A DNA stretch of 64,000 nt from Aequorivita sp. CIP111184. GTDB lineage: Bacteria; Bacteroidota; Bacteroidia; Flavobacteriales; Flavobacteriaceae. Shown piece after piece: positions 6,115-14,511 of this stretch; the first letter of the stretch is position 1, and each line of letters starts with the position of its first letter. A program made the position numbers and the translations under genes. The stretch is from assembly GCF_900489465.1 (NCBI RefSeq), contig NZ_UEFQ01000019.1, positions 1-64,000 on the forward strand, given 5' to 3'. The notes below the pieces were generated by a model, which had not been told where the DNA came from, made no database searches, and saw only the letters and a program-made list of their open reading frames with translations.

Positions 6115-7098
6115 ATGAAACTTCAAACCGAAATACCACTAAAGCCCGAAGAATATCAAATAGATTATTCTTCGAAAATTCTTTTATTGGGAAGCTGTTT
6201 TTCGGAAAATATTGGAGGAAAGTTTGATTTTTATAAGTTTCAGAATTTGCAGAATCCGTTCGGGGTTATTTTCAATCCAGTTTCCATTGAAAAGCTGATT
6301 GTTCGTGCTATTGAAAAAGTTTCTTTTTCTGAGAAAGACATTTTTCATCACAACGAAATCTGGAAATGTTTTGAAGCCCATTCCGAACTTTCATCTTTGG
6401 TCAAAGATGAATTTTTAAAGAGTCTTAACTCGGCGCTTCAAAGTTTACGCGAAACACTATTTTCTTCAACTCACATTATTTTTACGTTCGGAACTTCATG
6501 GGTTTATCGGGAAAAAGAAAGCAAAGAAGTTGTTGCCAATTGCCATAAACTTCCGCAGAAAAACTTCACAAAAGAGTTGCTTTCCATCAAAGCGATTTCA
6601 AAAAGCATTCAAAATATTTTTGATCGAATTTCAGAAATAAATCCAAATGCAACTATAATAAATACGGTTTCACCAGTTCGTCATATTAAAGATGGTTTTG
6701 TGGAAAATTCGCTGAGTAAAGCACATTTACTTTCCGCAATCCACCAAACAATTTGTCACCCTGAGCTTGTCGAAGGGCAGCAATCTTCAATCGTTAATCT
6801 TCAATTCCATTACTTTCCTTCTTTTGAAATAATGATGGATGAACTGCGCGATTATAGATTTTATGCTGAAGACATGATTCATCCCAACAAAACTGCAATC
6901 GAAATTATTTGGCAAAAATTTTTCACCGTGTGGATTTCTTCTGAAACGGAATCTCTTCAAATGGAAATTGCCTCCATTCAAAGTGGTTTGCTTCATAGAC
7001 CTTTCAACCCAACAAGTGCAGAACATCATCAGTTTTTGGAAAATCTTCTACAGAAAATTTCCGCACTTAAAGAACAGCTTCCACACATTCAATTTTAA
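6115..7098 (+). CDS. GSCFA domain-containing protein
   Basis: 327 aa. The name-giving GSCFSENIGGK motif lies at about residues 26-36, and FTFGTSWVYR near residue 120 is a second conserved block; the family is related to SGNH/GDSL esterases. The substrate is unknown. It is commonly found next to alaS in flavobacteria. At about residue 213 the protein carries CHPELVEG, encoded by a dispersed palindromic repeat inserted in frame (6754-6778), so a small loop of this copy is repeat-derived. Confidence 0.9.
   Translation: MKLQTEIPLKPEEYQIDYSSKILLLGSCFSENIGGKFDFYKFQNLQNPFGVIFNPVSIEKLIVRAIEKVSFSEKDIFHHNEIWKCFEAHSELSSLVKDEFLKSLNSALQSLRETLFSSTHIIFTFGTSWVYREKESKEVVANCHKLPQKNFTKELLSIKAISKSIQNIFDRISEINPNATIINTVSPVRHIKDGFVENSLSKAHLLSAIHQTICHPELVEGQQSSIVNLQFHYFPSFEIMMDELRDYRFYAEDMIHPNKTAIEIIWQKFFTVWISSETESLQMEIASIQSGLLHRPFNPTSAEHHQFLENLLQKISALKEQLPHIQF
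6754..6778 (+). repeat. In-frame dispersed palindromic repeat (CHPELVEG type)
   Basis: A segment built on CTGAGCTTGTCGAAGGG is read as CHPELVEG inside the GSCFA gene. A close relative (CTGAGCCTGTCGAAG) lies in metH at 32166-32190 in the same orientation and the same reading frame. Confidence 0.65.
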
Positions 7099-7137
7099 GG
7101 ACTACCCTCTGCATCCAAATACTGCTTTCTAAAGAAT

Positions 7138-7183
7138 ACGTCAATTGCCCTATTGTGAAACGTTTGCATTTGGGACAATTTTG
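7138..7183 (+). promoter_or_regulatory. Operator-promoter site 1 (GTCAATTGCCC box)
   Basis: ACGTCAATTGCCCTATT at 7138-7154, overlapping a TTG -33 element (7153-7155), then 20 bp and CAATTTTG at 7176-7183. It is one of four copies in 7-12.2 kb and controls the lipoprotein gene at 7236. Confidence 0.65.
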
Positions 7184-7235
7184 CTTCAACTAATAATCAC
7201 GTATCCGCTAAGGCGGAGAATTAAAACCAAGCAAA

Positions 7236-7754
7236 ATGAAAACATTCAACAAAACAATTTTAGTATTGATGGCCGTAGTTGCCATTAGTTTAACTTCTTG
7301 TAAGAAAGACGATGACGGTGGCGACGGTGGCGGTGGAGCAGCTTCAGGAACTGTAAGTGCAAAAGTAAATGGGTCCAGTTATAATTCAGAACCACTTCTT
7401 ACAAGTGCCGTGCGCAGTGATGCTAATGGAACAAGTACTTTATTAATAACGGCTAACACAATGAATGGAAAAAATATTACTTTATCTATTGCGGGAGGTT
7501 TTGATGGAGTTGGTTCCTACAATATTGGTGGTGGAGCCAATGTTTTTAACACTGCAAACTATACTGAAATAGATGCTGGCAATCCAACTGATGCTCAAAT
7601 CTGGACTGCACCTTTTGATACTAGCGTTGCTGGTGAAATAAAAGTTTCTGATATTTCAAGCACAAATATTAAAGGAACTTTTAATTTTCGAGGGAAAAAT
7701 GCAGATGGCACCTTTAAAGAAATTACCGAAGGTTCTTTCAATGTAAACTTTTAA
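7236..7754 (+). CDS. Small lipoprotein, DUF6252-like
   Basis: 172 aa. The lipoprotein signal ends in SLTSC, with Cys at about residue 22, followed by KKDDDGGDGGGG. The remainder is predicted beta-rich, of the type seen in DUF6252-like proteins (for example GTVSAKVNGSSYNSEP and a C-terminal ITEGSFNVNF). It should sit in the outer membrane or periplasm. Function is unknown. Its promoter carries the palindromic box shared with the propeller, kinase and regulator genes downstream, so it is probably a target of that two-component system. A terminator follows. Confidence 0.85.
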   Translation: MKTFNKTILVLMAVVAISLTSCKKDDDGGDGGGGAASGTVSAKVNGSSYNSEPLLTSAVRSDANGTSTLLITANTMNGKNITLSIAGGFDGVGSYNIGGGANVFNTANYTEIDAGNPTDAQIWTAPFDTSVAGEIKVSDISSTNIKGTFNFRGKNADGTFKEITEGSFNVNF

Positions 7755-7798
7755 TAAAAGCTATAAAGAAAATCTCTATGTTGAGGTTTTTACGTGGG

Positions 7799-7836
7799 CC
7801 GGGGGCGAAACGCAAGTTTTTCCTCCGGTTTTTTTA
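7799..7836 (+). terminator. Terminator after the lipoprotein gene
   Basis: Stem CCGGGGG (7799-7805) with CCTCCGG (7822-7828), one G-T pair, loop of 16, followed by a run of eight T. Confidence 0.75.
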
Positions 7837-7880
7837 TTGAGTCGATTAGTTTATGAGTTTAGAAGTTTAAATTTTATTTT

Positions 7881-7957
7881 TTAACCATTAACCATTAACC
7901 ATTAACCATTAACCATTAACCATTAACCATTAACCATTAACCATCAACCATCAACCA
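7881..7957 (+). repeat. Tandem heptamer array, 11 copies
   Basis: Nine copies of TTAACCA followed by two of TCAACCA, perfectly in phase. The array ends 4 bp before operator site 2. Such arrays change copy number by slippage. Confidence 0.95.
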
Positions 7958-7961
7958 AAAT

Positions 7962-8007
7962 ACGTCAACTGCCCTATTGATTTCACTTTTTTTCTGAAGC
8001 ATCTTTG
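7962..8007 (+). promoter_or_regulatory. Operator-promoter site 2
   Basis: ACGTCAACTGCCCTATT at 7962-7978, TTG -33 at 7977-7979, 20 bp, then CATCTTTG at 8000-8007. The propeller gene starts at 8034. The layout matches sites 1 and 4. Confidence 0.65.
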
Positions 8008-8033
8008 AATCATCAACGTATAAAACCACAATT

Positions 8034-9902
8034 ATGAAAACTTCAATTAAATTTTACGCAATGGCTTGTCTTTCTTTGTTTATGACATTTACCATTGCTG
8101 CCCAAAAAGCAGAGCAACCGGATTTTCGATATGATACCGGAGCCAAAATAAACGAAATGTCATTAACGCAAGGAGGAACAATGGTTGTTGCTACCAACGA
8201 TGGTCTTGTGGGGATAAAACCAGGTAGCAACCAACTGTTGTTTAATTTCACAGAATACGGAAGAGTAAAACCAGAGGAGCTTACTTATATTCCCAATGCA
8301 CCTTATGTAATAGTTTATCAAGGTGGTTTTGCCAATTTGAGCTCTAAAAAAACAGTTATTGATTATATTTCAGGCAAAACGCTTTTTAGTACAGAAAGTA
8401 ATGGGTGGAAAGATGTTATAACATGCACTGTTATGATGCCTCAAAATAAATTAGTGGTAAGCGGGAATAGAACTTCAAAAGAAAAATATGCACAACAAGT
8501 CGCTGTTTATGACCTTAACACTGGAAAAGAAGATTATAGGTTTGATATAGGCGAGCCAGGACGAGTAGGTATAGCGAAAACTTATGCTGTTACAGGAACA
8601 CCGCTTCTGTTAAAGAATAGTCTGGTTGTGCCAACTTCCCAAGGGGTTTTTAATATGAAGGCTCAAACAGGAGAACTTATTTGGCAAAATGACATGAAGA
8701 ATATGAATTCACTTGTTGCCGATGCATCAGAAACTGAAATTTATGCTTTTGAACTAGTAAACCAAGGAAAAAATACTCGTATTCACAAACTAGGAATTAA
8801 CGGCGCTGAGCTTTGGAAAGACGATCATAAAGTAAAAGGGCAAGTAGTGAATTTTGAAATTCTTCCAAATGGTATTGCTGTGGTGAGCAATCAAAGCGAT
8901 GGCGGCAATGAAAGTGTTTTTGCGCGCAGCAACGAATCTAACATCGCATTTTTGAATGCTTCAAACGGGGAAGATCTTTGGGAGAAAGCACCAAAAACAA
9001 AAGGCTACGTTCAGCATTTCTACATAATGGAAGACGGAATTCTTTTCGGAATTTACCAAGGAGGAATCAACAAGATTTCGTTTGATGGACAGACGCTTTT
9101 CAAAAAGCCCTTAAAAACAGGAGAGAATATTTTAACGATGGCTGAAACACCACAAGGGTTGATTTATATCACTTCTGAAGATGCTAATATTGTAAACCTT
9201 AAAACTGGCGATCAAGTTTGGGACAAACCTTTAAAATATAAAAGAGCTGACGCTGTGAGCTCAACTTTTGATAGTAAAAACAATCGCTATCTTATTAGTG
9301 CAGACGAAAACTTATTTGCTGTAGATGCCACTTCTGGTGCTGTAACTACGTTGGCCGAGTCAAAATTTGATGGCAAGGAAGCTCCCTCACACGTAGAAAT
9401 TAGAGATGGCGGAATTCTATTGACCAGTGATCAAAATATGCTTTTAATGGACTGGAATGGCGGTAAGCAATGGCAAGAATATTACCGTGCGCCGGGGAAA
9501 AGTGCTATGGGTGCTATTTTAGCTGCAGTAGCAGCAGTAGCATCGGCAACAACAGCAATGGCTGCTGCAAACTCTTCTATGCAAAACAAATTGGCTGGAT
9601 ATGACAGGCAGTCTGAAATTGATGCCGATCTAGCCGGAGGAATGGCTGCCGCAACGGGAGCGTCAATTGCTGAAATGCTTAAACGTTTCAAAGCAACCGC
9701 AGCTACTAAAGACGACCAATTTATACTTACCAAACTTGAAGATGGTGTAGGTCTCGTGAAATTGAGTAAGGATACTGGTGAAAAAGGAAAGGAAATTGTG
9801 CTTAAAGACAAACAGCCGGAATATATAGTAGATGAAATTGGAGGGTTGCTTTATTACAAAGCAGATAACAACTCAATTTTTGCGTATGATCTTAAAAAAT
9901 AA
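8034..9902 (+). CDS. Secreted PQQ-like beta-propeller protein with Ala-rich insert
   Basis: 622 aa. A signal peptide ends around TFTIAAQ (about residue 23). Repeated blades of the PQQ/WD type follow through most of the protein, with recurrent motifs such as GELIWQND, GEDLWEKAP and GDQVWDKPL. At about residues 489-552 an Ala-rich, partly hydrophobic segment (AILAAVAAVASATTAMAAA) interrupts the propeller before the last blade. There are no PQQ-binding catalytic residues that I can recognise, so it is more likely a binding or sensing protein than a dehydrogenase. Its promoter carries operator site 2. A terminator follows. Confidence 0.85.
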   Translation: MKTSIKFYAMACLSLFMTFTIAAQKAEQPDFRYDTGAKINEMSLTQGGTMVVATNDGLVGIKPGSNQLLFNFTEYGRVKPEELTYIPNAPYVIVYQGGFANLSSKKTVIDYISGKTLFSTESNGWKDVITCTVMMPQNKLVVSGNRTSKEKYAQQVAVYDLNTGKEDYRFDIGEPGRVGIAKTYAVTGTPLLLKNSLVVPTSQGVFNMKAQTGELIWQNDMKNMNSLVADASETEIYAFELVNQGKNTRIHKLGINGAELWKDDHKVKGQVVNFEILPNGIAVVSNQSDGGNESVFARSNESNIAFLNASNGEDLWEKAPKTKGYVQHFYIMEDGILFGIYQGGINKISFDGQTLFKKPLKTGENILTMAETPQGLIYITSEDANIVNLKTGDQVWDKPLKYKRADAVSSTFDSKNNRYLISADENLFAVDATSGAVTTLAESKFDGKEAPSHVEIRDGGILLTSDQNMLLMDWNGGKQWQEYYRAPGKSAMGAILAAVAAVASATTAMAAANSSMQNKLAGYDRQSEIDADLAGGMAAATGASIAEMLKRFKATAATKDDQFILTKLEDGVGLVKLSKDTGEKGKEIVLKDKQPEYIVDEIGGLLYYKADNNSIFAYDLKK

Positions 9903-9924
9903 TCTACTAGCCAGATTATTTATC

Positions 9925-9958
9925 AAACCGAGGACGAAGTGAGGAGCGTCTACGGTTT
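9925..9958. repeat. Imperfect hairpin after the propeller gene
   Basis: AAACCG (9925-9930) pairs with CGGTTT (9953-9958), and GACG (9933-9936) with CGTC (9947-9950), around GAAGTGAGGA. It resembles a REP-like unit and immediately precedes the terminator. Confidence 0.55.
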
Positions 9959-9960
9959 TG

Positions 9961-9994
9961 AAACCCCATGTTCAACTATGGGGTTTATTTTTTT
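9961..9994 (+). terminator. Terminator after the propeller gene
   Basis: Stem AAACCCCAT (9961-9969) with ATGGGGTTT (9978-9986), loop of 8, then A and a run of T. Confidence 0.85.
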
Positions 9995-10051
9995 ATCAGT
10001 CTTAAATGAAGAAAATCCAGAAGAGAAGACATTAATATCTCAAAATTAAAT

Positions 10052-10097
10052 AAGGCAATTGCCCTATATGGTTAAAAATGAAAATGAGTTATCTTTA
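10052..10097 (+). promoter_or_regulatory. Operator-promoter site 3
   Basis: AGGCAATTGCCCTATA contains the perfect palindrome GGCAATTGCC. A TATCTTTA -7 box lies about 20 bp downstream (10090-10097). The small membrane protein and histidine kinase genes follow at 10121. Confidence 0.65.
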
Positions 10098-10120
10098 GGT
10101 TTTAAAACCAAACTCAAAAT

Positions 10121-10363
10121 ATGTTTTTTCAAACTGCCATAATCATAATTATACTCAGCTTAATTATTGGGCTTTTGGTTTGGTTCTTTACCGGGAAAAG
10201 GGCGTTGGTGCGCATTCACAATGAAGAAATTTCTATGCTTGAAACGGCCATTTCTACCAATCGTTTTCAAATAAATTTTAGAAATTCGAATTTGAACACC
10301 TACGATTTTTTAAAGTTCAATCTTAATGAAGCATTAATAGTACAACCGGAAACCCTACTATAA
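10121..10363 (+). CDS. Small single-pass membrane protein, unknown function
   Basis: 80 aa. A strong membrane helix covers about residues 5-27 (AIIIIILSLIIGLLVWFF) and is followed by a basic patch (TGKRALVR) and a soluble tail of about 50 residues. I recognise no family. It ends 3 bp before the histidine kinase start and shares its promoter (operator site 3), so the two are very likely co-translated. It could be an accessory sensor or a regulator of the kinase; that is inference from position. Confidence 0.75.
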   Translation: MFFQTAIIIIILSLIIGLLVWFFTGKRALVRIHNEEISMLETAISTNRFQINFRNSNLNTYDFLKFNLNEALIVQPETLL

Positions 10364-10366
10364 GAT

Positions 10367-12160
10367 ATGAAGCGATTTCTTCTTCTCCATTTTCTTTTAT
10401 TCAGTATTACGGCCACTTTTTCGCAGAATAAACAAATCATTGATTCCATAAATAAACTCTATGTTCAAGGACTTAATATTCCACAGGATTCCATAGTTTC
10501 TCTATTTCAAAAAAATTTAAAAGACGCCGAAAAAATCTCATACGAGCTTGGCATGGCTGATGCTTACTCACAACTCAGCTTGGTTTATGGCTATCAAGGC
10601 AAATATGAGGAAAGTGCCAAAAGTTCAATTGAAGGAATAAAAATCTATGAAAGACTGAACAAATTAGACAGGGTAGCAGATTACTACGCTGAAATGGGTT
10701 ACAGCATGAAATACCGCGATTTAAAACAGGCGATTTATTACATGCAAAAGGGAAAAACTGTTGCTGAAGCTAATAATTTTGAGAAAGAATTAAAGGACAT
10801 TTATAACAATTACGGGGTCTTAAAAGAAATTAACCAAGAGTTGGACAGTGCACTTTATTATTATAACCGAGGTTTAAAAATTAAACTAAAGATTAATGAT
10901 ACCATTGGCATTCCGTATAGTTGGAGCAATATGGCTGGAGTTTATGGTTTGCAGGAAAATTATTCAAAGGCTAGGGAATATTTCAACAAATCGCTTCAGC
11001 AACGATTGGTGTGGGCAGATTCGTTAGGAATTGCAGAAAACTACACTCAATTGGGCGAGGTTTTTATGGCAGAAAAGAAATGGAACGACGCAATTCCGTT
11101 AATGCATAAATCACTGCCTATTTCGCTTAAAAAACAATACCAAAACCTTACACAGTATAACTACAAAATGCTTTCAGATATATACAAAAAGTTGAATAAT
11201 ACGGATTCAGCTTTGTATTATTTTGAGCAATATTCAACGGTAAAAGATAGTGTGCATAGTATAAAAGTCCAGGAAAGCATCGCTTCTCTTAATATTGAAT
11301 TTGAAACCGAAAAGAAACAAAATGAAATCCTTCAACAACGCGCTCAATTAGCAGAAAAGGATTTGGAAGTCCGCCGAAAAAACACTTTTATTTTTGGCAG
11401 TTTAGGGCTTGCTCTAGTCTTGGGGTTATTGGGTTATTTACTTTACAGTCAGCAAAAATTGAAAAATCGGCAACTTCAAAAGGAGGGTGAGCTAAAAAAT
11501 GCGTTGGCTAAAATAGAAACTCAAAACAAATTGCAGGAGCAGCGTTTGCGAATTTCGCGCGATCTGCATGACAACATTGGGGCACAACTCACCTTCATCA
11601 TTTCCAGCATTGACAATCTGAAATTTGGGTTTACAGACATTAGTGAAAAATTGGGCAATAAACTTACCAATATTAGCAATTTCACATCCCAAACTATTTA
11701 TGAATTGCGCGATACTATTTGGGCAATGAATAAGGAAAATATCACCTTTGAAGACCTGCAGGCGCGAATCGCCAACTTTATAGAGCACGCCAAAAATGCT
11801 TCCGACAGAATTGATTTTTCTTTTAATATAGATAAAAATGTTGATCAGACTCACGTTTTTACTTCTGTGGAAGGAATGAATATTTACAGGATTATTCAAG
11901 AGGCAGTAAACAATTCTTTGAAATATGCCTCAGCAGATGAAATTGAGGTAAATATTTCAGAAAAGGAAACCCAATATCAAATTGAAATCGCTGATAACGG
12001 CAACGGGTTTGACCAAGAAACCATTGAACTGGGCAATGGATTGAACAACATGAAAAAACGCGCGCGTGAAATTAAGGGGACATTTCAAATAAAGTCTTCG
12101 AAAAAGGGAACTTCTATTACGTTAAATGCGCCAAAATTACCTTTAGAAAAAATTAATTAA
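10367..12160 (+). CDS. TPR-containing sensor histidine kinase (HisKA_3 type)
   Basis: 597 aa. A signal peptide (ending TATFSQN) is followed by periplasmic TPR repeats at about residues 40-310, a membrane helix at about 343-362 (FIFGSLGLALVLGLLGYLLY), a coiled coil, the HisKA_3 dimerisation box RISRDLHDNIGAQL with the phosphoacceptor His near residue 400, and an HATPase domain (NNSLKYASADEI; IADNGNGFD; GLNNMKKRAREIKG). It is the NarL-class partner of the LuxR-type regulator encoded 78 bp downstream. The TPR region probably senses a protein or envelope signal. Promoter: operator site 3. Confidence 0.94.
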   Translation: MKRFLLLHFLLFSITATFSQNKQIIDSINKLYVQGLNIPQDSIVSLFQKNLKDAEKISYELGMADAYSQLSLVYGYQGKYEESAKSSIEGIKIYERLNKLDRVADYYAEMGYSMKYRDLKQAIYYMQKGKTVAEANNFEKELKDIYNNYGVLKEINQELDSALYYYNRGLKIKLKINDTIGIPYSWSNMAGVYGLQENYSKAREYFNKSLQQRLVWADSLGIAENYTQLGEVFMAEKKWNDAIPLMHKSLPISLKKQYQNLTQYNYKMLSDIYKKLNNTDSALYYFEQYSTVKDSVHSIKVQESIASLNIEFETEKKQNEILQQRAQLAEKDLEVRRKNTFIFGSLGLALVLGLLGYLLYSQQKLKNRQLQKEGELKNALAKIETQNKLQEQRLRISRDLHDNIGAQLTFIISSIDNLKFGFTDISEKLGNKLTNISNFTSQTIYELRDTIWAMNKENITFEDLQARIANFIEHAKNASDRIDFSFNIDKNVDQTHVFTSVEGMNIYRIIQEAVNNSLKYASADEIEVNISEKETQYQIEIADNGNGFDQETIELGNGLNNMKKRAREIKGTFQIKSSKKGTSITLNAPKLPLEKIN

Positions 12161-12161
12161 T

Positions 12162-12207
12162 ACGGCAATTGCCCTATTTTCTCTGTAATTCTTAAAATGT
12201 ATTTTTA
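12162..12207 (+). promoter_or_regulatory. Operator-promoter site 4 (regulator autoregulation)
   Basis: ACGGCAATTGCCCTATT at 12162-12178 contains GGCAATTGCC. TATTTTTA (12200-12207) lies 21 bp after the box. The response regulator gene starts at 12238, so the regulator probably controls itself. Confidence 0.65.
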
Positions 12208-12237
12208 GTATCTTTATAAACAACTAACCAACCAAAG

Positions 12238-12885
12238 ATGCTTAAAATTGCAATAGTTGACGATAATACCTTCCTCATAAATGCGGTAAAGGAAAAACTT
12301 TCCTTTTTTGACGACATCACGGTAAAGCATACTTCATTAAATGGTAGCGATCTTCTTACCAAACTTGAGGAAAATCACAACCTCGATTTAATTTTGATGG
12401 ATATTGAAATGCCCGTTCTCAACGGCATTGAAACCACGCAGATAGTAAAACAGAAATACCCACACATCAAAATAATTATGCTCACCGCATTTGATAACGA
12501 TGAACATATTTTTAATGCCATAAAAGCAGGTGCAGACGGTTATCTGTTGAAAGAAATAAACCCAAAAGATTTATACGAAGGAATCGTTGAAACCTTAAAT
12601 GGCGGAGCGGCAATGAATCCTTCCATCGCAATGAAAACTTTGAAATTGCTCAGAAACCCAATTGATATTCAAAATCCTCGCGACCAAGAAGAAATTTCAC
12701 TTTCCACACGCGAAGTTGAGGTTTTGGAACAACTCAGTAAAGGCTTGAGCTATACCGTAATTGCCGATCATCTTTTTCTTTCGCCCAGCACCGTCCGAAA
12801 ACACATTGAGAATATTTACAAAAAACTTCAGGTGCACAGTAAGATTGAGGCGGTCCAAAAAGCGCGTAATCACAATATTATTTAA
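12238..12885 (+). CDS. LuxR/NarL-type response regulator
   Basis: 215 aa. The receiver domain (about residues 1-120) has the acidic pair DD at 8-9, phosphoacceptor Asp55 in LILMDIEMP, a Thr in MLTAF and Lys in YLLKEI. The C-terminal LuxR helix-turn-helix domain (about 150-210) has STREVEVLEQLSKGLS and SPSTVRKHIENIYKKL. All phosphorylation residues are present. It is the likely partner of the upstream TPR kinase and the best candidate to bind the GGCAATTGCC box found before its own gene and three neighbouring units. Confidence 0.95.
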   Translation: MLKIAIVDDNTFLINAVKEKLSFFDDITVKHTSLNGSDLLTKLEENHNLDLILMDIEMPVLNGIETTQIVKQKYPHIKIIMLTAFDNDEHIFNAIKAGADGYLLKEINPKDLYEGIVETLNGGAAMNPSIAMKTLKLLRNPIDIQNPRDQEEISLSTREVEVLEQLSKGLSYTVIADHLFLSPSTVRKHIENIYKKLQVHSKIEAVQKARNHNII

Positions 12886-12960
12886 ATTTTCCTTTCTAAA
12901 AATAGTTGTAGTTTTATGTTTCATTTCTGAAAAAAAACTTCGGAAGTTTACATTATCACT

Positions 12961-14511
12961 ATGAAAAAACTATTCTACTTTACACTCTATTTTCTTTTAT
13001 TTTATTCACTTTCAGTGTTTTCACAGGAAAAAAACCCTGTAATTGAAAATATTCAAAAAGAAGCTTACGAAAACTCACAACTTGAAATTCTCGGTCACGA
13101 ATTACTTGATGATATTGGTCCGCGATTGGTAGGGACACCCCAAATGCAACAGGCTCATGACTGGGCCGTATCAAAATATAAAACTTGGGGCATTTCCGCA
13201 GAAAATCAGCAATGGGGCGAGTGGAAAGGTTGGGAGCGTGGTATAACGCATATTGATATGGTTTATCCAAGAGTGCAAACTTTAGATGGAACGCAATTAG
13301 CGTGGAATCCCGGCACTTCTTCAAAAGGTGTAACTGCAGAAGTGATGGTGCTGCCAGAAATAAAAGACTCAATTTCTTTTAAAAATTGGCTGCCGAACGT
13401 AAAAGGAAAATTTGTGATGATTGCGATGAAACAACCCACAGGAAGACCAGACGAAAATTGGAAGGAATTTGCAACCCCAGAATCTTTTGAAAAAATGAAG
13501 AGGGAAAGGAGTGAACAGGCTAAAGCTTGGAACGAAAATATAAAGCGAAGCGGATACGACAGAAGAAGTATAATTCCCGCTTTGGAAGAAGCTGGCGCAG
13601 TTGGAATAGTTGATTCCTATTGGTCAAAAGGTTTTGGGGTAAATAAAATTTTTAGTGCCCGAACTAAAAAAATTCCCTCTATAGATATGGAATTGGAAGA
13701 TTACACCATGCTTTACAGAATGGTGGAACACGGTGACAAGCCGAAAATCCACGTGGTTGCAGAATCGAAAGATTTGGGAAGAGTGCCAACTTTCAATACA
13801 ATTGCGGAAATAAAAGGAACTGAAAAACCTGAGGAATATGTAATTCTTTCAGCCCATTTTGATTCTTGGGACGGCGGAACGGGCGCAACCGATAATGGAA
13901 CAGGAACTTTGGTAATGATGGAAGCAATGCGGATTCTGAAAAAAGTTTATCCAAATCCAAAGCGAACCATTTTGGTAGGGCATTGGGGAAGTGAAGAACA
14001 AGGTCTGAACGGGTCTTCTTCCTTTGTAGCTGATCATCCCGAAACTGTAAGCAATATTCAAGCAGTTTTTAACCAGGACAATGGAACCGGAAGAGTTACT
14101 AGCATCAATGGTGCAGGTTTTTTGCAATCGTATGATTATATGTCGCGCTGGTTGCGGGCAGTCCCCGATACCATTCGCAAAAATATTGAAATCACTTTTC
14201 CCGGCTCGCCAGCACGTGGTGGTTCCGATAATGCAAGTTTTGTTGCAGCTGGAGCACCCGCTTTCAGTTTGAGTTCTTTGAGTTGGGATTACTGGAATTA
14301 CACTTGGCACACCAATCGTGACACCTATGATAAAATAGTTTTTGACGATGTGCAAAGCAATGTAATTCTCACTGCAATTTTAGCTTATATGGCTTCGGAA
14401 GATGATTCAAAAACTTCACGGGAACAAGTTATTTTGCCAATTGATGATAAAACAGGAGAACCACAAACTTGGCCTACGCCAAGGGTTCCTGAAAGAAAAG
14501 GTGGGCAATAG
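12961..14511 (+). CDS. M28 family metallopeptidase, secreted
   Basis: 516 aa. A signal peptide ends at SLSVFSQ (about residue 21). A protease-associated (PA) domain-like insert occupies the middle (about 110-260), and the M28 zinc core is C-terminal: AHFDSWDGGTGATDNG (His, bridging Asp), GSEEQGLNGS (catalytic and ligand Glu), FNQDNGTGRV (Asp) and YTWHTNRDTYD (His). All ligands are present. It should be an aminopeptidase or carboxypeptidase acting outside the cytoplasm. It does not carry the palindromic operator, so it seems to be outside the upstream regulatory module. Its stop abuts the convergent amidase gene. Confidence 0.92.
   Translation: MKKLFYFTLYFLLFYSLSVFSQEKNPVIENIQKEAYENSQLEILGHELLDDIGPRLVGTPQMQQAHDWAVSKYKTWGISAENQQWGEWKGWERGITHIDMVYPRVQTLDGTQLAWNPGTSSKGVTAEVMVLPEIKDSISFKNWLPNVKGKFVMIAMKQPTGRPDENWKEFATPESFEKMKRERSEQAKAWNENIKRSGYDRRSIIPALEEAGAVGIVDSYWSKGFGVNKIFSARTKKIPSIDMELEDYTMLYRMVEHGDKPKIHVVAESKDLGRVPTFNTIAEIKGTEKPEEYVILSAHFDSWDGGTGATDNGTGTLVMMEAMRILKKVYPNPKRTILVGHWGSEEQGLNGSSSFVADHPETVSNIQAVFNQDNGTGRVTSINGAGFLQSYDYMSRWLRAVPDTIRKNIEITFPGSPARGGSDNASFVAAGAPAFSLSSLSWDYWNYTWHTNRDTYDKIVFDDVQSNVILTAILAYMASEDDSKTSREQVILPIDDKTGEPQTWPTPRVPERKGGQ

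Follow-up and report, generated by a model that had tools for sequence, protein, structure and literature searches.

What reads the four similar promoters that lie between 7.1 and 12.9 kb in a 64,000-nucleotide stretch of Aequorivita sp. CIP111184 (contig NZ_UEFQ01000019.1, positions 1 to 64,000), and which genes would it control? In this stretch, called the window here, the region contained the genes of a lipoprotein (DUF6252), an exported propeller protein of the PQQ/BamB-like kind, a membrane protein of 80 residues, a histidine kinase with TPR repeats and a response regulator of the NarL/LuxR type. These genes form four presumed transcription units, and a shared palindromic element was found upstream of each of them (Table 1). 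We interpret this element, with good confidence, as the predicted operator of the regulator encoded at 12238–12885; the TPR kinase would signal to the regulator, which would activate its own gene, the kinase gene and the genes of the exported proteins in the class II manner. The genes probably belong to an autoregulated NarL-type two-component regulon which is widespread in Flavobacteriaceae. An autoregulated two-component circuit had been proposed in the initial annotation of the window, and this reading was supported by the rarity of the element, its conservation before orthologous genes, its co-occurrence with the regulator, and a site layout and position typical of a NarL-class activator.

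Predicted operator box and promoter geometry

The full element was found to be an 18-base-pair (bp) palindrome, and the 7-2-7 layout known from NarL sites was contained in its inner 16 bp. The four boxes were present at the positions reported in the initial annotation and had 0 mismatches to its consensus, RNGKCAAYTGCCCTAT. The length of 17 bp given there was incorrect; the consensus has 16 letters, and the complete unit starts 2 bases further left. As had been stated, no fifth exact copy was found in the window. A search of the window with up to 3 mismatches gave 15 matches against 7.4 expected (1 of 100 shuffles reached 15), and 8 of these 15 rows were the four palindromic sites counted on both strands.

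The whole genome (3.54 Mb, 44 contigs) was searched with the 16-bp core pattern TAVGDCANNTGHCBTA, and the reversed pattern served as control. The core was found at 7 places and the control at 0. The 7 places were the four window boxes, one intergenic site on contig C11 and two sites within coding sequence, and the genome-wide search proposed earlier thus found a rare box, not one spread over hundreds of promoters. The C11 site was located upstream of a 525-codon open reading frame (ORF) with a signal-like start, with a 22-bp spacer to TATTATTG. A partial copy of the C11 protein contained a weak match to a type IX secretion system sorting tail at its end, below the Pfam cut-off. The circuit, described as closed in the initial annotation, is therefore small but not strictly closed, with one extra promoter in its own genome and several dispersed box-bearing promoters in other Aequorivita genomes.

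The distance from the box to the -7 element, previously given as about 20 bp, was exactly 22 bp at all four sites. A second -7 candidate, TATCTTTA, was present 31 bp past box 4. Each of the four -7 elements in the window was one base off the strict form TAnnTTTG, and the degenerate form YANNTTTR was used for comparison across 81 sequences, comprising the first 20 kb of the window and 80 relatives retrieved by the regulator. YANNTTTR occurred exactly at +22 for 123 of the 153 strict boxes, at +21 for 4 and at +23 for 2; the mean at the remaining offsets was 0.53. When the outer positions were relaxed, the gene strand had 175 composite boxes (box plus promoter) and the opposite strand 3, in 77 of the 81 sequences, some of which are near-identical relatives, so that these counts are not independent. 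The sigma-A -7 box has been placed at -12 to -5 (PMC9723704). From this placement and the 22-bp spacing, the box was predicted to cover about -52 to -35 and to be centred near -43.5, not far from the earlier value of -45. An activator site adjoining the core promoter is the class II layout; it was found here as a layout alone, with start sites predicted from the position of the -7 element.

The promoters were of two grades. A TTG abutted the box in 39 of 44 lipoprotein promoters and 13 of 14 propeller promoters, and the -7 element was CANNTTTG in 50 of these 58, starting mostly with C where the consensus has T. Elsewhere the abutting TTG was rare (3 of 32 regulator promoters, 6 of 29 kinase promoters), and the first -7 position was more often T. 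From these two grades we infer that feedback and output may have different thresholds. As the TTG stands at the expected place of a -33 element, a protein bound to the box could hinder the polymerase, and the regulator might bind the box yet repress these promoters in a negative autoregulation. We consider such repression unlikely. A centre near -43.5, held at a rigid distance just upstream of the core promoter, is a position common among activators; activation by NarL from -44.5 at a single 7-2-7 site has been described (PMC9314961), and C-first -7 elements are expected of promoters that need help.

Conservation of the box and its co-occurrence with the regulator

Many relatives had kept the succession of alaS, the GSCFA gene and the genes of the lipoprotein, the propeller, the kinase(s) and the regulator, and had boxes in front of the corresponding genes; in the remaining relatives, one or more of these genes were missing. 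The comparison of promoters in related flavobacteria, suggested in the initial annotation, thus found the box conserved before orthologous genes. The first ORFs past the box were examined in 102 stretches, comprising the 80 relatives, the first 20 kb of the window, one further stretch (L111) and 20 box-selected stretches from other genomes. Past 170 composite boxes, these ORFs formed 35 clusters, of which the largest were 44 DUF6252-type lipoproteins, 32 regulators, 18 kinases (some preceded by a small membrane-protein gene, as in the window) and 14 propellers. The smaller clusters included OmpA-tailed, RCC1-like, MORN-like and TPR-CHAT-like proteins, assigned by eye and not by family search. 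Of the 138 first ORFs that were not regulators, 119 had a signal- or membrane-like start (background 458 of 1066), as judged by a crude heuristic which also counts membrane spans.

Among the matches listed for other Aequorivita genomes, 12 further box places were found, 11 of them with a signal-like ORF downstream; no signal-like ORF was found past the box at the L194 place. The ORFs at these places included a 257–258-residue protein in at least 5 genomes and a 298-residue protein in at least 2, again among the matches listed. In the promoters of the 257–258-residue protein, the -7 element was not at +22. The place in L203 was within about 12 kb of the main box cluster of that genome.

In the 260-bp region upstream of the regulator gene, a box score of 13–14 was found in 43 of the 81 sequences, against 1 of 1600 shuffles, and an intermediate score in 9. 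In a survey of 393 Flavobacteriales genomes, the box-plus-promoter composite occurred in 25 (control 0) and a match to the regulator (E ≤ 1e-40) in 69. The regulator was matched in 23 of the 25 box-bearing genomes against 46 of the 368 box-less genomes (Fisher p = 3e-17, a value which ignores kinship among the genomes, overstates their independence and uses a pattern derived from the same group). The placement expected of autoregulation was also found in a different family of the order, where genes of regulators with only 49–51% identity were directly preceded by the box (L151 and L155, two genomes of one genus). Across the class, the composite was found in 14 of 296 genomes and the control in 0; among the 283 genomes outside the order, 12 had the composite. 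One genome of the same class outside the order (G712, contig C2, 654202–664255) contained three composite promoters with identical boxes in about 10 kb.

The recognition helix of the regulator was compared with the operator centre. The first helix residue was P in the form PS in 43 sequences, PA in 2 and PG in 1. CA..TG was kept in at least half of the boxes in 42 of 43 P-type sequences with scored boxes, against 10 of 34 of the x-G form; in the x-G form, the outer C and G of the operator were invariant (48 of 48 boxes). Recognition-helix type and operator centre thus appear to vary together, which is supportive only.

Several observations weigh against regarding the box as the operator of this regulator in a class II circuit. 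The strict composite box was absent from 46 of the 69 regulator-bearing genomes, two box-bearing genomes (G050 and G119) gave no regulator match at the above threshold, and the operators have diverged in some relatives. Two of the 7 boxes of the own genome are situated within coding sequences. Related sequences such as L044 and L046 inflate the counts. A phylogenetic sign test of the covariation between helix and operator was not significant, and the tree, which is poorly resolved, showed few independent changes (5 and 8). In 29 of the 81 regulator upstream regions, the box score did not exceed 10, which is the chance level; because the kinase gene ends close by in many of these 29, the regulator may be read there from an upstream promoter. 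Activation by NarL has been described from -66.5 and -77.5 as well (PMC9314961), and position alone is therefore no proof of class II action.

The genomes which contain either the box or the regulator alone would fit a box bound by another transcription factor which controls the two-component locus. This explanation is also unlikely: the box and the regulator co-occur across the 393 genomes, the box is found in front of the regulator gene in a second family too, and it matches a NarL-type site in size, symmetry and position. That the boxes are repeat copies or one duplicated promoter with no regulatory meaning, as four similar copies in 5 kb might suggest, was rejected as extremely improbable, as it is contradicted by the conserved geometry: the flanks differ, the distance to the -7 element hardly varies, and the copies are conserved at orthologous positions across many relatives and are almost absent from the rest of the genome.

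A few relatives contained rearranged forms of the locus. Paired boxes were found 213 bp apart in L031 (7601–7830) and 168 bp apart in L033 (7651–7835), two Aequorivita sequences in which the propeller gene was lost and the box promoter and terminator region were kept as a short remnant; boxes 168 bp apart were also present in G007, G012 and G014. In L032 (5617–8000), the second box was followed, at the place of the propeller gene, by a gene resembling that of a TPR kinase (46% to the kinase of the window), and tandem pairs of kinase-like genes were present in several relatives. In several Flavobacterium relatives (L079 10649, L082 10649, L098 10664 and L106 10661), a box was located just 3' of the regulator gene, before an ORF of about 480–700 codons.

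Proposed mechanism and related systems

In the proposed circuit of kinase, regulator and operator, the TPR kinase would phosphorylate the regulator on an envelope signal, and a regulator dimer would bind the operator centred near -43.5. The bound regulator would contact RNA polymerase and activate transcription in the class II manner. It would raise the expression of its own gene and of the kinase gene in a positive feedback, and would switch on the lipoprotein, the beta-propeller protein and one dispersed exported protein (that of C11).

The kinase scored 38.6 bits for HisKA_3 (cut-off 24) and 48 bits for HATPase_c (cut-off 26.4), which places it among the HisKA_3 two-component kinases, and the regulator scored 85.6 bits for Response_reg (cut-off 30.2) and 65 bits for GerE (cut-off 23.5), the domains of the NarL/FixJ (LuxR-type) regulators. 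The closest solved structures to the regulator by sequence were VraR and NarL. The system of Escherichia coli NarL is alike in its receiver and GerE regulator with a HisKA_3 kinase partner, in its 16-bp inverted repeat, composed of two 7-bp elements with 2 bp between them, which starts with TAC and ends with GTA (PMC4549865, PMC9314961), and in a site at -44.5 in one activated promoter (PMC9314961). It has a different inner half-site, and the TPR sensor, the Bacteroidota-like -7 element, the probable autoregulation and the predicted exported-protein outputs set the present system apart. The score of the regulator for the NarL equivalog (NCBIfam PRK10651) was 130.4 bits, below the cut-off of 250.

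Systems of the VraSR/LiaSR type are autoregulated and sense the envelope, and VraR resembles the present regulator as noted above. They differ in that the kinase here is a TPR protein and the targets are different; the kinase scored 80 for the LiaS model (cut-off 450). Porphyromonas FimS/FimR was compared through FimS alone, which was among the NCBIfam matches of the kinase with one stretch in the TPR region (NF053520, 56.6 bits, below the cut-off of 600). The initial annotation did not recognise the circuit as a described system, and searches of a library of openly licensed PubMed Central papers found no description of it.

To our knowledge, few NarL-type regulons have been mapped in Bacteroidota. 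Here the operator, the promoter geometry, the regulator and the targets can be read together from sequence across much of a family, and the box-promoter pattern can be used for finding targets. The system offers a test case for the interplay of NarL-type activators with the unusual Bacteroidota promoter, and it opens a way to the function of the DUF6252 lipoproteins and of the conserved exported propeller protein.

Two-hairpin RNA and genes of the locus

A conserved two-hairpin RNA was found 3' of the lipoprotein stop codon. It contained AAUCUC...GUUGAGGUUUUUACGUGG and a terminator, and its general form was AAUCUY...GUUGAGRUU followed by a terminator. With at most 1 mismatch, the 17-mer core was found in one copy in 22 of 28 Aequorivita genomes and was absent from 6; one more match was found in another family, and the reversed control gave 3 matches in 59 genomes. 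Of 51 orthologues of the lipoprotein gene, 14, which belong to several genera, had the pattern within 30 bp past the gene; it was not found there in A. sinensis (L034) and A. capsosiphonis (L035). A similar hairpin, AUCUUGUUGUUGAGAU, was found directly past the propeller stop codon in 15 of 37 propeller orthologues, among them 9 of the 17 with a lipoprotein-propeller gap below 75 bp, and past the lipoprotein gene in 3 more sequences. Exactly one exact copy of this type was present in 11 of 12 genomes, which were chosen by their loci; with 1 mismatch, further matches were found in 4 of the same 12 genomes, and the reversed control gave 1. In many relatives, the RNA, usually in single copy, was located past the lipoprotein gene or, in a clade where the two genes adjoin, past the propeller gene.

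Folding z-scores of eight stretches, including the propeller 3' region of the window, ranged from -4.1 to -6.0, and a terminator hairpin alone would also score low. A search of 6900–13200 against Rfam gave no match at E ≤ 1. The MAFFT alignment of the RNA misplaces loops that differ in length. Judged by eye, the coding sequence of the lipoprotein was less well conserved within Aequorivita than the RNA. The common GUUGAG and the common position suggest that the two RNA forms are homologous, and the 3' RNA is a candidate small RNA or transcript-end element. It is conceivable, though rather doubtful, that the circuit has an RNA arm, in which the output transcripts end in the two-hairpin RNA, which may be released as a small RNA, and regulator and RNA form a circuit for envelope remodelling.

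Table 1. Boxes, promoter elements, genes and RNA of the locus (positions in the window)
Feature	Position	Strand	Remark
Operator box 1, ATACGTCAATTGCCCTAT	7136–7153	+	
-7 element CAATTTTG	7176–7183	+	22 bp past box 1; TTG abuts box
Lipoprotein, DUF6252, 172 aa	7236–7754	+	lipobox Cys22 invariant across 46 aligned sequences
Two-hairpin RNA of the 3' untranslated region, conserved	7767–7835	+	includes terminator
Operator box 2, ATACGTCAACTGCCCTAT	7960–7977	+	
-7 element CATCTTTG	8000–8007	+	22 bp past box 2; TTG abuts box
Exported PQQ/BamB-like beta-propeller protein, 622 aa	8034–9902	+	low-confidence Ala-rich helical stretch at about 489–555
Operator box 3, ATAAGGCAATTGCCCTAT	10050–10067	+	
-7 element TATCTTTA	10090–10097	+	22 bp past box 3
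Small membrane protein, 80 aa	10121–10363	+	heads kinase operon
Histidine kinase: TPR repeats, HisKA_3, HATPase_c	10367–12160	+	domains from family search; signal sequence and single membrane span by eye
Operator box 4, ATACGGCAATTGCCCTAT	12160–12177	+	first base is last base of kinase stop codon
-7 element TATTTTTA	12200–12207	+	22 bp past box 4
NarL/LuxR-type response regulator, receiver and GerE helix-turn-helix, 215 aa	12238–12885	+	

The TPR part of the kinase probably faces the periplasm, because a signal sequence, the TPR repeats and one membrane span precede the kinase core. A fold search of the lipoprotein model against the PDB gave no match at E ≤ 0.001, so that the fold gave no clue to the function. 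Many beta-propellers matched the propeller model, with a TM-score below 0.45 for all 50 among the matches listed, which indicates the fold class only. A defence-system search with 4 proteins gave no match except for a generic TPR model on the kinase. The regulator of the window was 99% identical to its counterpart in A. antarctica SW49. In the lipoprotein-propeller intergenic region, a 7-bp unit, ATTAACC, was found to be tandemly repeated at about 7882–7957, right before box 2.

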